Position numbers and translations under genes: made by a program. A DNA stretch of 64,000 nt from Terriglobia bacterium (GTDB lineage Bacteria > Acidobacteriota > Terriglobia > Acidiferrales > UBA7541): the NCBI GenBank assembly GCA_020072805.1, contig JAIQGC010000003.1, forward strand, positions 1 through 64,000, read 5' to 3'. This document shows positions 20,898 through 43,185 of this stretch, one piece after another. Each line of letters opens with the position of its first letter. Positions within the stretch are counted from its first letter, which is position 1. The notes beneath the pieces are model-generated. The model had not been told where the DNA came from. It saw only the letters and a list, made by a program, of their open reading frames with translations, and did no database searches.

Positions 20898-21223
20898 CAG
20901 GCTGCTGGAAGCTCAGGGCCAGGACCAAGGTTCCGCGGGTACTGCCCGGGAGTACACCGGGAGATGGCCCGTTCGCTGCAGCCAATCGCCGTTCGACCCT
21001 CGAAATCCCCCATTCGCCGTAACTCTCTGGATTTAATAGGGGTTAGCTGTCACGCTACAGCCGTCCAAGAACCCGCAGTGGGTCTCTGAACGTGCGTGAT
21101 AGAGTTTGACATTGCATCATGCGCGGGGGGATCGCACCGGGTTGGTGGGGAATTTCTTCCGGGATTTTAGGCGCATGGGGCGCAAGCGGAGAAAAGAATT
21201 TTCGAAAGCGAGGGGCAGCAGTT
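20898..21223. other. Intergenic region upstream of the Tes/MSS-like gene; nothing certain found
   Basis: This 326-bp spacer has no convincing ORF. A TTGACA stands at 21106-21111, but no -10 hexamer lies 16-18 nt downstream. A GAGGGG ribosome binding site at 21210-21215 precedes the ATG at 21224. No riboswitch or repeat copy was recognised. Confidence 0.5.
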
Positions 21224-23365
21224 ATGTCGAATATCACAGTGAATCTGATGCGGGTCGCGGACACGCTCATCTGCAAGGCCGCCGGGATCACCTTTAACAC
21301 CTTCCAGTATTTCAATAAGCGCAATCCCAATCCGTCGGTCACTCCGCAGTGGTCGGATAAGCCGCTGCTGAAGTCCTGGGAGAAGACCAAGCCGACGCTG
21401 GGGTTCCCCCGGCAGACGGACTCGCTCTGCCCGGACTGCGTGCGCGAAGCGCGGCAGGACATTATCGAAGGGAAGAAGGACTGGCGCGACCTGATGCACG
21501 AGAAGGTCGGGGAGATCAAGGCGCAGATCATCGAGCGCGACGGCCAGGTGTGGATGGTCAAGGACTGCCCGCAGCACGGCCACTACGAAGACCTGATGGC
21601 CTATGATTCGAAATTCCTGGGATGGATTGAAAAGCAGTTCCCCTGCCGGGACATTCCCGCGCACAACGACGAAGGTCTGCACAAGCATGGCTCGAGCAAC
21701 GTCCTCTACGGCCGCGGCTCGGTGCTCACCGTGGACCTGACCAACCGCTGCAACATGATGTGCGACCCCTGCTTCATGGACGCCAACCAGGTCGGCTACG
21801 TGCACGAACTGTCCTGGGAGGAAGTCCAGGAAGTGCTGGACAACGCGCTGAAGATCAAGCCGCGGCGGCAGATGTCCGTGCAGTTCTCCGGCGGCGAGCC
21901 GACCATGAGCCCGTACTTCCTGGACGCGGTGGCCTATGCGCGCAAGGTGGGCTACAACTCGGTGCAGGCGGCCACCAACGGAATCGAATTCGCCAAGAGC
22001 AAGGAGTTCTGCAAAAAAGCCTTCGAGGCGGGCATGCGCTACGCCTACTTGCAGTTCGACGGCATCGGCAATGACGCCAACAGCCACCGCCAGGTGGGCA
22101 ACCTGTTTGACGTGAAACTGCGCGCCATCGAAAACATGCACGAAGCGGGCATCGAGATCGTGCTGGTGGTGACCATCGTCAACAACGTGAACAACGATCA
22201 GGTGGGCTCGATCGTGAAGTTCGCCATGGAAAACCCCAAGAAGATCGCTTTCGTGAGCTTCCAGCCGGTTTCCTTCACCGGCCGCGACGAGGAGATCACC
22301 CCGGAGCGGCGGCTGCGCCAGCGTTACACGCTTTCGCATCTGGCCAGCGACGTGAGCAAGCAGGTGGGCAAGGTCGAGCCCACCCGCGACTGGTTCCCCA
22401 TCTCCTTCATCAGCACGTTTGCGGGCTTTGCCGACATGGTCAAGGGCACGGAATCGCAGTGGGGTTCGCTCTCCTGCGGCTGCCACCCCAATTGCGGCGT
22501 GGGCACGGCGCTGATGATCAACAAGGAGACCAAGGAGTGGGCCCCGGTGCCGCGCTTCCTGGACGCCCAGCAACTGGTTCGGGACGTCACCGCCATCACC
22601 GACGCGGCCCGCGGCAAGAACTTCTCCAACTTCATGATGGCCATGGCCCTGCTCAAGAACTACAAGCCTTTCCAGGGACCCAAGGGCTTGACCCTCATGG
22701 ACCTGTTCAAGAAATTCGACAAGACCTGGGCGCTGACCAAGAAGTCCGACGTGAAGTACGGACGCACCTCGCCCGAGCGCACCTACGAAGACGCCATGAA
22801 GCGCCGCCAGAGCGACCCCTGGAACTTCCTGTTCATCGCGGGAATGTGGTTTCAGGATCTTTTCAACTACGATTTCCGCCGCACAGAGATGTGCATCATC
22901 CCCTACGCGACGCAGCAGGGCGAGATCTCCTTCTGCGCCTACAATACGGGCATCGGCTGGCGGCAGATCATCGAAAACATGCACAAGAACGCGACCGTGG
23001 CCCAATGGTACAAAGAACACGGCAAGCACGAGATCTACGCCAAGGGCAAGAACGTGGACCTGGCCACCTACGAGCATTCGCTCAAGATCGACGCCGACGA
23101 TGCCGCGCGCGTGCGCCACGTCGAGCACGACATCCCGGTGACCGCGGCCGAGGAAGAGCGCCAGCGCCGTAAGAAGGCCTACGAAGAGCAGGCCAAGGTC
23201 CGCGCCATCTACGAGGAACTGGTGCTCAAGAAGCCCCAGCCGACGGTGGTGCAGATCGGCAACGTCAGCGACTTCGCCAAGGCCGTTCCGGCGGACTTCA
23301 GCAAGGCCAACGGCGGAGCCAAGAAGAAGAGCGAACCGGCCGCCGAACCTGTCGCGGGCGACTAA
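21224..23365 (+). CDS. Radical SAM enzyme, Tes/MSS-like (candidate membrane-spanning lipid synthase)
   Basis: A 713-residue radical SAM protein. The SAM-cluster motif is CNMMCDPC (C176, C180, C183), followed by the SAM-binding SGGEP at 222-226. Extra cysteines lie N-terminally (C69, C72, C115, C141) and C-terminally (C418, C420, C424, C557, C571), enough for auxiliary Fe-S or rubredoxin-type sites. Size, CPDC/CPQHG start and cysteine layout match the tetraether synthase (Tes) family of archaea and its bacterial homologues (MSS). These couple two lipid tails to make membrane-spanning lipids; Acidobacteriota make iso-diabolic acid of this kind. The tail (640-713) is charged and low-complexity. 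The ATG at 21224 follows GAGGGG. It is monocistronic, with its own terminator. The family call is from memory, without a search. Confidence 0.75.
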   Translation: MSNITVNLMRVADTLICKAAGITFNTFQYFNKRNPNPSVTPQWSDKPLLKSWEKTKPTLGFPRQTDSLCPDCVREARQDIIEGKKDWRDLMHEKVGEIKAQIIERDGQVWMVKDCPQHGHYEDLMAYDSKFLGWIEKQFPCRDIPAHNDEGLHKHGSSNVLYGRGSVLTVDLTNRCNMMCDPCFMDANQVGYVHELSWEEVQEVLDNALKIKPRRQMSVQFSGGEPTMSPYFLDAVAYARKVGYNSVQAATNGIEFAKSKEFCKKAFEAGMRYAYLQFDGIGNDANSHRQVGNLFDVKLRAIENMHEAGIEIVLVVTIVNNVNNDQVGSIVKFAMENPKKIAFVSFQPVSFTGRDEEITPERRLRQRYTLSHLASDVSKQVGKVEPTRDWFPISFISTFAGFADMVKGTESQWGSLSCGCHPNCGVGTALMINKETKEWAPVPRFLDAQQLVRDVTAITDAARGKNFSNFMMAMALLKNYKPFQGPKGLTLMDLFKKFDKTWALTKKSDVKYGRTSPERTYEDAMKRRQSDPWNFLFIAGMWFQDLFNYDFRRTEMCIIPYATQQGEISFCAYNTGIGWRQIIENMHKNATVAQWYKEHGKHEIYAKGKNVDLATYEHSLKIDADDAARVRHVEHDIPVTAAEEERQRRKKAYEEQAKVRAIYEELVLKKPQPTVVQIGNVSDFAKAVPADFSKANGGAKKKSEPAAEPVAGD

Positions 23366-23398: not shown

Positions 23399-23436
23399 CG
23401 GCTGCCCCGGGTTTTCACCGGGGCAGCCGCTTTTTT
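23399..23436 (+). terminator. Intrinsic terminator after the Tes/MSS-like gene
   Basis: A perfect 12-bp stem CGGCTGCCCCGG / CCGGGGCAGCCG with a 7-nt loop is followed by C and six T. It closes the radical SAM gene as a separate unit. Confidence 0.92.
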
Positions 23437-23841: not shown

Positions 23842-24492
23842 TCAGCGGGAATAGTTGCGCACGTACTCCGGCACTGGTATGGAAACCTTGCCGCGCGGGT
23901 CGGGTAGCGGCGCGCCGGGCGTCAATTTCAGCGGGAGCACGCCGGTCCATACGTCGCGGGCATACTCAGCTTCGTCGTCAATCGGCGGGCCGGTGCGCAC
24001 CTTGGCGGAGAGTTCGTTCAGCGGCACCGCCAGGACCATCGTGGCCTTCAGCTCCTGCTCGCTGGGCGGGCGCACGCCGGGCCAGCGCCCGGGAATCACC
24101 CGCTCGACGAAAGCGCGCATGGCCGCGAATTTTTCCTGCGCGTCTTCGATGGGTTGGGCTTTGCCCAGGACCATCACGGAGCGGTAATTGATGGAGTGGC
24201 CGGTGGCCGTGGGCGCGAGCACCAGGCCGTCAATTAGCATCACGCTGAGGCACAGCGGCGTGCCGGCGGCCAGCGCGCGAAACATGCGGCTGGCGGCCGA
24301 GCCGTGGAGAAACAGGCGCTTGCCCACGCGCACATAGTTGGTGGGGATGACGTAGGGCTGGCCTTCCATCGCGAAGCCGATCTGGCAGACAAAGGCTTCG
24401 TCGAGAATGGCGTGAATCGCGGCTTCGTCATAAACGGCGCGATTGGGCTTGCGCCGGATTTTGGTGCGCTCGGTGGGAGTGTAGTCGCTCAT
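23842..24492 (-). CDS. Pyridoxamine 5'-phosphate oxidase-family flavin-binding protein
   Basis: A 216-residue protein of the COG3467 type (nitroimidazole-resistance/PNPOx-like split barrel). Typical pieces are RRKPNRAVYDEAAIHAILDE, the beta strands CQIGFAMEGQPYVIPTNYVR and KRLFLHGSAASRMFRAL, and YRSVMVLGKAQPIEDAQEK. Such proteins bind FMN or F420; the substrate cannot be told. The reading start at 24492 has TAGGCT six bases upstream on the minus strand, a weak match to the leaderless pattern. The gene is co-directional with the serine hydrolase gene that lies upstream of it (24546-26462). Confidence 0.85.
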   Translation of the reverse strand: MSDYTPTERTKIRRKPNRAVYDEAAIHAILDEAFVCQIGFAMEGQPYVIPTNYVRVGKRLFLHGSAASRMFRALAAGTPLCLSVMLIDGLVLAPTATGHSINYRSVMVLGKAQPIEDAQEKFAAMRAFVERVIPGRWPGVRPPSEQELKATMVLAVPLNELSAKVRTGPPIDDEAEYARDVWTGVLPLKLTPGAPLPDPRGKVSIPVPEYVRNYSR

Positions 24493-40717: not shown

Positions 40718-41704
40718 CTATCCGCCGATGGAAACCATGGTTCGCCCGGGCGGCGCGAAATCGGGTTCGTTGATGCGGTGGCCCGGCTCCTTCTCGTGCA
40801 CCACGGAGCGAATGAAGAAAGCCAGGTCGTCGTCGGAGGCGCCGTCACGCAGCAAGGGCCGCAGGTCATGCTCGTCCTTGCTGAAGAGGCAGGTGCGAAT
40901 CTTGCCGTCGGCGGTCATGCGGATGCGCGAGCAATGCCCGCAGAAGGGCTGCGTGACCGAAGCAATCAGCCCGATCTCCCCGGCAGCCCCGTCGGCGAAG
41001 CGGTATTTCCGCGCCGTTTCGCTGGGCTCGTTGGGGATGGCCTCCAGCTTCCATTGCGCATCAATGCGCCGGTGCACTTCCGCCGCCGGAACCACCGACT
41101 CGCGCGTCCACGAGCGGTCCGCGTCCAGCGGCATGAACTCGATAAAGCGCATGATGATGCCGCGCTCGCGGGCGAAGGCCGCAAACGCCTCCACCTCGCC
41201 GTCGTTGATCCCCCGCACCAGCACCGCGTTGACCTTCACCGGCGCCATGCTTGTGCGCTGCACCGCTTCGATGCCCGCAATCACGTCAGCGTAGGAGTGC
41301 GTGCGCGTAAGCTGCTCGAACTTCACCGGGTCCAGCGAATCCAGGCTGATATTGATGCGCCGCAGCCCCGCGCGCACCAGCCGCTCGCAGCGCCCCGCCA
41401 GCAGGTGCCCGTTGGTGGTCATCGAAATATCCTCGAAGCCCACTCCATGCAGCCTCTCGATGAACTCCTCGACGCCCTTGCGCACCAACGGCTCGCCGCC
41501 CGTGACCCGAATCTTGCGGATGCCCAGCCCGTGGTAGACCCGTCCCAGCCGTTCCAGTTCGTCCCAGGAGAGCAGTTCGCTTTCCGGGCGGTAGTTTTCC
41601 GGGTCGGCGGAACGGCAATAGACGCAGCGGAAATTGCAGCGGTCGGTGACCGAAATGCGCAGGTCAGTGATCTGGCGGCCGAATTTGTCGTGCAGCAGGC
41701 TCAC
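40718..41704 (-). CDS. moaA: GTP 3',8-cyclase MoaA
   Basis: A 328-residue radical SAM enzyme for the first step of molybdenum cofactor synthesis. The N-terminal cluster motif is CNFRCVYC (C23, C27, C30), with TGGEPLVRKG as SAM site. The second cluster uses C255, C258 and C272 (CGHC ... C). The C-terminal Gly-Gly that MoaA needs is present (SIGG). I take the GTG at 41704, preceded by AGGGG at 8 nt, because the family start is normally about 20 residues before the cluster. No other moa gene is adjacent. A long structured leader lies upstream. Confidence 0.95.
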   Translation of the reverse strand: MSLLHDKFGRQITDLRISVTDRCNFRCVYCRSADPENYRPESELLSWDELERLGRVYHGLGIRKIRVTGGEPLVRKGVEEFIERLHGVGFEDISMTTNGHLLAGRCERLVRAGLRRINISLDSLDPVKFEQLTRTHSYADVIAGIEAVQRTSMAPVKVNAVLVRGINDGEVEAFAAFARERGIIMRFIEFMPLDADRSWTRESVVPAAEVHRRIDAQWKLEAIPNEPSETARKYRFADGAAGEIGLIASVTQPFCGHCSRIRMTADGKIRTCLFSKDEHDLRPLLRDGASDDDLAFFIRSVVHEKEPGHRINEPDFAPPGRTMVSIGG

Positions 41705-42018
41705 GCGCGTGACCCCTGAAAACACGAACGCCCGAATCCGGCCTGGAATCGGGCGATACGCCCCAAAGGTCGCGGCCTTTGAAGCTCTCCTTTCCAAGCG
41801 CGGGAGGCCCGGGCGTTTCCGCCCGAACCCTCGGCAGCGGAGTTCTCGCCAAATTCCCGGCAAAAACCGCCTCTGCGTCGCCCCCTCGTCCTTAGGTTTT
41901 CTCGCCTGTAGGCGCCGGGGGTCGGAGTTCTCCCCTATTCTACCCCCGTACCCACCCCTGCGCAATCGGGAGCTGACCGGGTCGGCAAGGCGCTGGAATG
42001 TGATACAGTTTTTTCCGC
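41705..42018 (-). other. Long, hairpin-rich leader region upstream of moaA
   Basis: This 314-bp divergent spacer holds five strong hairpins. In minus-strand order: CGCCT/AGGCG (41903-41914); CGGGCG-GAAA-CGCCCG with a GNRA tetraloop (41810-41825); CAAAGG/CCTTTG (41764-41781); GGGCG-TAT-CGCCC (41751-41763); CCCGATTCC/GGATTCGGG (41731-41753, one mismatch). The last two share three bases and are mutually exclusive, as expected of a switch. It ends 27 nt before the moaA start. I could not match it to the Moco (moaA) riboswitch or a c-di-GMP aptamer from memory. TACAGT (42004-42009) lies 9 nt before the divergent gene at 42019. Confidence 0.5.
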
Positions 42019-43185
42019 ATGCGCATCTTCGTCCTGGGGGCGGGGGCCACCGGCTCCCTGCTGGCACAACTGCTCGAACGGCAAGGGCACACCGTCTGGT
42101 GCGGCGACCGCGACCCGCAGCGGGCCAGGCGATTTCTGGGCAAAAAGTCCAAAATTCCCCTGGTCGAGGTCAACGCCCGCAATCTGCGCGGCATCGTCCG
42201 CGCCGGCAAGGGCTGCCAGCTCCTGATCAACGCTTCCGCTTCCGTCTTCAACGAAATCGTGATGCGCGCCGCGCTGCGCCTGCGCGTCCACTATCTCGAC
42301 CTCAGCTCCCACCTCACCCGCCACCCCTTCAAATCCGAACAGCTCCGCTTCGCCAAAAAATTCCAGGATAAAAACCGCGCCGCGCTCATCAACGCCGGCG
42401 TGGCCCCCGGCCTCACCAACCTGCTCGTGCGACGCGCCGCCGATTCTCTCGACCGCGTCGATGCCGTGCACATCCGCCTCTATGAAAGCTCGGAGAGCGG
42501 CGACCCCATCTCCCAGTGGTCCCCCGAAGTCTCCTTCGACGAAGCCGTCTCCCACCCGCGCGTCTATCGCGCCGGAAAATTTTCCTTCGGCAAACGCTTC
42601 GCCGAACTCGAAAAATTCCGCTTTCCCGCTCCCGTGGGACTCGCGCGCGTCGTCCTGGCCGCGCAGGACGAAGTCGCCACCCTCCCTCACTTCATCCCCA
42701 TGCGCGAACTCGACGTCAAAATCGGCGGCAACGAAATCGATCGCCTGCGCCGCTGGCACAAGCAAGGAAAGCTTTCGAAATCCCGCGGCATGCCCCGCCG
42801 CCATTTCCCGGAAACGCTCACTCCCCGCCAGGTGGCCAAGCTTATCCGCAAGGGCATCCTGCAGAACGCCCGTTTCGCCGCGGCCGTCCTCGTGCGCGGT
42901 GAAAAAAAGGAAAAACCCCTGCTCCTCCGCGCCGACTGCACCTTCCCCACGCTCTTCCAGATCCGCCAGCACGGCTTCTTCACCACCCCCGTGGCCTACG
43001 GCACCGCCCACATGGCCGCCCTCTTCGTCAAACATTTCCCCCGCGAACTCGCCGGCGTTTTCGCCCCGGAATCCCTCCCCGCCGAACTCCGCCGCGCCAT
43101 CCTCGCCGCCGTGAAGAACCACAAGATCAAGCTCTCCGTAAAGACCACCGAACTGAAGCCCAACGACGACGAAGACGAATTCTAG
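42019..43185 (+). CDS. Saccharopine dehydrogenase-like NAD(P)-binding protein
   Basis: A 388-residue protein with an N-terminal Rossmann fold: MRIFVLGAGATGSLLAQLL carries G-x-G-x-x-G, and the acidic strand end is CGDRDPQRA. The conserved ALINAGVAPGLTNLLVRRAA is a signature of saccharopine dehydrogenase/homospermidine synthase-like proteins. The C-terminal half is basic and beta-rich. Substrate unknown; similar genes in many bacteria are annotated only by fold. Divergent from moaA. Confidence 0.85.
   Translation: MRIFVLGAGATGSLLAQLLERQGHTVWCGDRDPQRARRFLGKKSKIPLVEVNARNLRGIVRAGKGCQLLINASASVFNEIVMRAALRLRVHYLDLSSHLTRHPFKSEQLRFAKKFQDKNRAALINAGVAPGLTNLLVRRAADSLDRVDAVHIRLYESSESGDPISQWSPEVSFDEAVSHPRVYRAGKFSFGKRFAELEKFRFPAPVGLARVVLAAQDEVATLPHFIPMRELDVKIGGNEIDRLRRWHKQGKLSKSRGMPRRHFPETLTPRQVAKLIRKGILQNARFAAAVLVRGEKKEKPLLLRADCTFPTLFQIRQHGFFTTPVAYGTAHMAALFVKHFPRELAGVFAPESLPAELRRAILAAVKNHKIKLSVKTTELKPNDDEDEF

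Follow-up and report, generated by a model that had tools for sequence, protein, structure and literature searches.

A Tes-clade radical SAM protein near-universal in Terriglobia as a candidate iso-diabolic acid synthase

Soil and lake palaeothermometers in wide use rest on brGDGTs and iso-diabolic acid. The locus described here raises the question of which enzyme joins the tails of such lipids in Acidobacteriota. The window, by which we mean the whole stretch of 64,000 nucleotides that was analyzed (contig JAIQGC010000003.1 of a Terriglobia bacterium), encodes a radical SAM protein for which a synthesis of membrane-spanning tails had been proposed from the sequence alone.

The gene and its surroundings

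The original prediction had described an open reading frame of 713 residues with the motifs CNMMCDPC (residues 176-183) and SGGEP (222-226) and nine additional cysteines, and all of these were recovered position by position (Table 1). The gene was also said to possess its own terminator, and a 12-pair hairpin with a T tract indeed lies directly 3' of it. This hairpin (23399-23429) has 11 G-C among its 12 pairs, is followed by CTTTTTT and was graded strong. An in-frame upstream ATG at 21119 would give 748 residues; the ATG at 21224 was preferred for its GAGGGG motif and its better fit to the homologues. When compared with a 90% identical relative, the frame showed 69, 42 and 250 differences at codon positions 1, 2 and 3, respectively, which indicates that it is under purifying selection.

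Table 1. Features of the gene and of the encoded protein, with positions in the window.
Feature	Position	Strand	Remark
Radical SAM enzyme of the Tes clade (713 aa), candidate synthase of iso-diabolic acid / membrane-spanning lipids	21224..23365	+	
Probable ribosome-binding site GAGGGG for ATG 21224	21209..21214	+	Read from sequence
Predicted N-terminal helix, residues 3-33, moderately amphipathic, upstream of the Tes-aligned part	21230..21322	+	
Rubredoxin-type iron site C69, C72, C115, H118	21428..21577	+	60/60 homologues; Pfam Zn_ribbon_HMPTM
H153-x-H155-G-S-S158 in place of Tes CPxxCGxCxxH	21680..21697	+	
Radical SAM motif CxxxCxxC (C176, C180, C183)	21749..21772	+	Kept as in Tes
SGGEPT, SAM-binding motif, residues 222-227	21887..21904	+	
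C418-G-C420-H-P-N-C424; C424 at the [Fe4S4]C ligand position as in Tes	22475..22495	+	
Met541, aligned with Met439, a labile ligand of [Fe4S4]C in GDGT-MAS	22844..22846	+	60/60; alignment with PMC9433317 numbering
C557, Tyr561 (aligned with Tyr459) and C571, all in the [Fe4S4]C domain	22892..22936	+	
Intrinsic terminator, 12-pair stem, T6 tail	23399..23436	+	

The gene stands alone, with RelA/SpoT and Rid-family genes upstream and an FmdB-type zinc ribbon downstream. Clustering of the neighbourhoods of 80 loci carrying this type of gene (the query type) revealed no fixed operon, the gene being mostly solitary; in some lineages, Tes, a DUF4440 lipoprotein or MutY is encoded nearby. The affinities of the matches point to Acidobacteriota, class Terriglobia, as the origin of the DNA. 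The source genome (4.0 Mb) holds a single homologue, and the sole other match to the query in this genome is a distant MoaA-like radical SAM protein, itself encoded in the window (40718-42067, minus strand). A plasmid search returned distant radical SAM matches only. Also, the protein encoded at 23842-24492 of the window (minus strand) shows a weak likeness to NimA-type nitroimidazole reductases (29-32 bits, far under the cut-off).

Relationship to Tes and metal sites

The best NCBIfam match of the protein was Tes (NF045702), with 321.4 bits and E=9e-96. The curated cut-off of this model is 450 bits, and the protein is thus not a canonical Tes. The best sequence match in the PDB was GDGT-MAS (7tol, 4e-60). 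In a Foldseek search with an AlphaFold model for which 60 homologues had been aligned (pTM 0.78; pLDDT 71 on average, under 50 in several of the cluster loops), 7tom/7tol came first (E=5e-25, TM 0.76 by target length, whole target covered) and the next fold was MoaA (3e-6). In a 55-row tree, the query clade formed one side of a branch supported at 100/100 and joined bacterial Tes, its nearest relatives being three acidobacterial Tes proteins (100/98). With midpoint rooting and a long stem (1.9), this tree places the query clade beside or within bacterial Tes. Profile, fold and tree therefore all have Tes as the closest family, as expected from the assignment to Tes-type radical SAM enzymes. 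This assignment is supported, with a qualification: as the protein falls under the Tes cut-off and lacks the ligands of the N-terminal cluster [Fe4S4]N, it is a derived relative of Tes, not a Tes.

A radical SAM protein of unrelated function, be it TrsS-like or peptide-modifying, might merely share the Tes fold, and the second NCBIfam match was indeed TrsS (NF045646), with 219 bits for a cut-off of 490. Nevertheless, the match to Tes extends over the full length and the fold, the gene may adjoin Tes, and it is near-universal in a class known for iso-diabolic acid, so that we regard an unrelated function as highly improbable.

Tes has four metal sites (PMC9433317), and the conservation of the corresponding residues was counted over the 60 aligned homologues. 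The extra cysteines, which had been suspected of forming auxiliary Fe-S or rubredoxin sites, are not scattered. C69, C72 and C115, together with H118, match the C-X2-C...C-X2-H rubredoxin site of Tes, which reads C9-X2-C12-X20-C33-X2-H36 in GDGT-MAS (PMC9433317). C424, C557 and C571 fall on the catalytic C-terminal cluster, and these three residues as well as Met541 and Tyr561 were invariant (60/60), so that the [Fe4S4]C ligands, the labile Met and the conserved Tyr of Tes all have counterparts. In Tes, [Fe4S4]C is the cluster whose sulfide bonds the substrate carbon, and Met439 and Tyr459 are fully conserved across 1000 archaeal homologues (PMC9433317). By analogy, we infer that these metal sites are filled as in Tes. 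The nine extra cysteines had been described as conserved-looking, which is true of eight, invariant in the 60 homologues, but not of C141: this position is Gly in 59 of 60, and we rejected C141 as a metal ligand and consider it a private residue. Elsewhere outside the SAM motif, C17 is not conserved and C263 is partly conserved. C418 and C420 are invariant beside C424 in query-type homologues; compared with Tes, C418 is extra in the query clade, and C420 is common to about half of the bacterial Tes aligned.

The [Fe4S4]N cluster of Tes is ligated by CX3CX2C and a His before the core, and these ligands are missing in the query clade. The CPxxCGxC motif was found in none of 27 aligned members, compared with all 20 Tes and MJ0619, and a conserved HxHG replaces it. 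Moreover, 58 of 60 homologues have no Cys whatever in this stretch, so that the absence of the motif is independent of the alignment. As for the predicted N-terminal helix, which is a feature of the clade, its hydrophobic moment is 0.45, a value exceeded by 3% of the other 18-mers, and a membrane contact is possible.

Distribution, lipids and gene links

A Tes-model match was obtained in 196 of 199 near-complete genomes of the class and in 85 of 85 genera, whereas canonical Tes, above the cut-off, was present in 20 of these 199 genomes (about 10%). In a sample of the phylum, 164 of 297 genomes had a match, 32 of them above the cut-off, and scores were bimodal, with acidobacterial Tes at 472-619 bits and the query type at or below 348. 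Some genomes encode two or three Tes-clade enzymes. A paralogue group with about 42% identity occurs in about ten same-genus genomes and is absent from the source genome (L095:3842-5713(-), L096:2140-4002(+), L097:3244-5178(+)); the members aligned keep the rubredoxin and SAM cysteines, have lost the [Fe4S4]C ligands and apparently hold the SAM cluster only. A second group, with about 53% identity, belongs to other families of the class and phylum (L092, L093, L094, L105, L264), and its aligned member keeps all catalytic residues. Contigs labelled Rhodanobacteraceae (L118, L129) carry a gene of acidobacterial type with about 90% identity; rather than gene transfer, we read these as probably misassigned bins.

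PMC13274423 cites a 2011 survey in which iso-diabolic acid was abundant (20-40%) in every one of 17 cultures from subdivisions 1 and 3; a subsequent survey detected the acid in subdivisions 1, 3, 4 and 6. A gene carried by 10% of the genomes cannot explain a compound so widespread in cultures, and a near-universal gene can. Iso-diabolic acid amounts to 30.4% in Edaphobacter modestus DSM 18101 and 25.0% in E. paludis JP48. With the Tes model, down to 1e-25, the E. modestus genome and the presumed E. paludis JP48 genome each gave one Tes-family match, of the query type. For Chloracidobacterium validum BV2-C, iso-diabolic acid is listed as one of the primary fatty acids, and the presumed genome of this strain contains the query type and no canonical Tes. 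Also, the single Tes homologue, 32% identical, noted in E. aggregans by Zeng et al. (PMC8941075) fits the query type.

These profiles bear on whether the 713-residue enzyme performs another radical step on the same lipids (C5/C6 methylation, ring closure or an H-shaped cross-link), the tails being coupled by another enzyme. Lipid radical SAM enzymes are functionally diverse (Grs, Gms; PMC11186832), the query clade has lost the N cluster and gained C418/C420, and Solibacter usitatus makes brGDGTs and no iso-diabolic acid (PMC10087280) while its relatives within the class carry the query type, a point which also speaks against coupling by the query type. On the other hand, the catalytic [Fe4S4]C site is intact, including the Met and Tyr counterparts, the two Edaphobacter producers have no further Tes-family match down to 1e-25, and methylated or ring-bearing forms have been reported from a subset of the strains, in contrast to a gene that almost all genomes of the class carry. 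We thus consider a different radical step rather unlikely.

The protein might otherwise be an acidobacterial member of the published Mss family, defined in Bacillota and Thermotogota, and not a Tes derivative. Mss homologues have been reported from some Acidobacteria MAGs (PMC11868695), and Mss has been linked to iso-diabolic acid in Bacillota (PMC13274423). However, as indirect evidence, Thermotoga maritima, a producer of diabolic acid, has no Tes-model match at 1e-25, a model which the 713-residue protein matches at about 1e-95, and membership of Mss is in our view quite unlikely. A local Mss was also sought among the short TrsS-like proteins that Acidobacteriota encode, but these were rejected, as most are devoid of the [Fe4S4]C cysteine pattern and nothing ties them to Mss.

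True Tes and the query type may be neighbours: the distance between them is 0.25 kb in G300, 0.8 kb in G037, 3-6 kb in G165 and G123, and 11 kb in G457, which has both types and is presumably Koribacter versatilis Ellin345. Of the 18 genera in the class that have Tes, 4 show such proximity, for which a simple model gives a chance probability of about 3e-6. In some lineages, the DUF4440 lipoprotein and MutY are neighbours common to both types, and the order query-type gene, Tes, DUF4440 lipoprotein, MutY is conserved at L241:6238-12001(-) and L245:8567-12367(+). The lipoprotein may belong to lipid handling.

It is true Tes, not the query type, which tracks the ether-forming Ger-type gene. Proteins with DUF2229, a domain of the Ger/PlsA family although not unique to it, were found in 24 of 32 Tes genomes and 49 of 265 others of the phylum sample (Fisher 2e-10, kinship ignored), and in 17 of 126 genomes with the query type and without Tes, the source genome being one of these 17. 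No DUF2229 match was obtained in E. modestus or in the presumed E. paludis genome, and neither species showed ethers of iso-diabolic acid (PMC13274423). A Ger-like gene adjoins Tes in two genomes (G222, G275). The two genes lie side by side in the same orientation at L239:5184-10183(-), where the Ger-like protein has two BcrAD_BadFG domains and DUF2229, and at L240:1301-6151(-); this pair is likely a tetraether lipid operon in Acidobacteriota. For the source organism, ether-forming partner genes had been expected outside the window, and contig C142 of the same genome does encode a Ger-like gene with two BcrAD_BadFG domains and DUF2229, a double activation-domain architecture reported for Ger (PMC13274423). 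There (L238:3765-8284(-)), the next ORF after the Ger/PlsA-like gene has 441 residues and no Pfam match, and it may encode a PlsR-like partner.

Proposed role and comparison with known enzymes

Near-universal in the class and of the Tes family, the query type is the best candidate maker of iso-diabolic acid, the signature lipid of these bacteria. We hypothesize, with a probability of roughly 0.7, that the protein is a membrane-spanning-lipid synthase descended from a Tes-type ancestor, which forms iso-diabolic acid from iso-C15 tails through the mechanism of Tes but has no [Fe4S4]N. SAM would be cleaved reductively and a first iso-C15 acyl chain would lose an H atom from its terminal methyl; the iso terminus of this chain is chemically the same as a phytanyl end (PMC8941075). 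The carbon radical would then be stored on the C-terminal [4Fe-4S] cluster, through a C-S bond to one of its sulfides, until another SAM turnover, now on the partner chain, forms the sp3-sp3 bond of iso-diabolic acid, the coupled product residing mainly in ester lipids. Coupling would proceed without the N-terminal auxiliary cluster of Tes. The residues needed for the Tes mechanism are present; the reaction, the substrate and each step are proposed by analogy. Besides the Solibacter lipids, three points argue against coupling: [Fe4S4]N is missing in spite of its presence in every Tes aligned, radical SAM paralogues shift function readily (those with about 42% identity lost the catalytic cluster), and the confidence of the AlphaFold model drops under 50 at several of the cluster loops.

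More broadly, Acidobacteriota might possess two couplers of Tes descent: the query type, near-universal and devoid of [Fe4S4]N, for ester-linked iso-diabolic acid, and a sporadic, Ger-tied canonical Tes for ether-linked brGDGTs. We give this scheme even chances. If it is true, one gene would mark iso-diabolic acid capacity across Acidobacteriota and the Tes and Ger pair would mark brGDGT producers, and with different marker genes the sources of the two could be separated in metagenomes. The query type would also demonstrate, as an experiment of nature, that sp3-sp3 coupling can do without [Fe4S4]N. The structure paper calls the roles of the other Tes metal sites unclear (PMC9433317), and a whole clade devoid of one site offers a ready-made test of its role. 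That bacteria have Tes homologues, for which a role in brGDGT synthesis has been proposed, is already known. In the literature searched, with the 2022 Mss paper outside its scope, we found neither a separation of the clade without [Fe4S4]N, nor its near-universality in Terriglobia, nor the contrast with Ger-linked Tes.

Compared with known systems, the 713-residue protein shares full-length homology, the fold and the motifs YLQFDG and FQPVSFTGR with Tes / GDGT-MAS (MJ0619, 7tol/7tom), from which it differs by the added N-terminal helix and a tail about 110 residues long. TrsS (NF045646) resembles it in the radical SAM core and over some of the N-terminal region; unlike it, the TrsS-like proteins found in Acidobacteriota retain CPxxCGxC and in most cases have no [Fe4S4]C cysteine pattern. 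Mss (Sahonero-Canavesi et al. 2022; PMC13274423) has the same proposed product, iso-diabolic acid; the indirect comparison by way of T. maritima showed no Tes-model match in that genome at 1e-25. The bacterial Tes of Acidobacteriota (Koribacter, Solibacter; Zeng et al. 2022, PMC8941075) falls in the same larger tree clade, sometimes adjoins the query-type gene and has a proposed role in brGDGT synthesis. Unlike the query type, the acidobacterial Tes examined score above the cut-off, keep [Fe4S4]N, are confined to about 10% of the class genomes and go with Ger-type genes.
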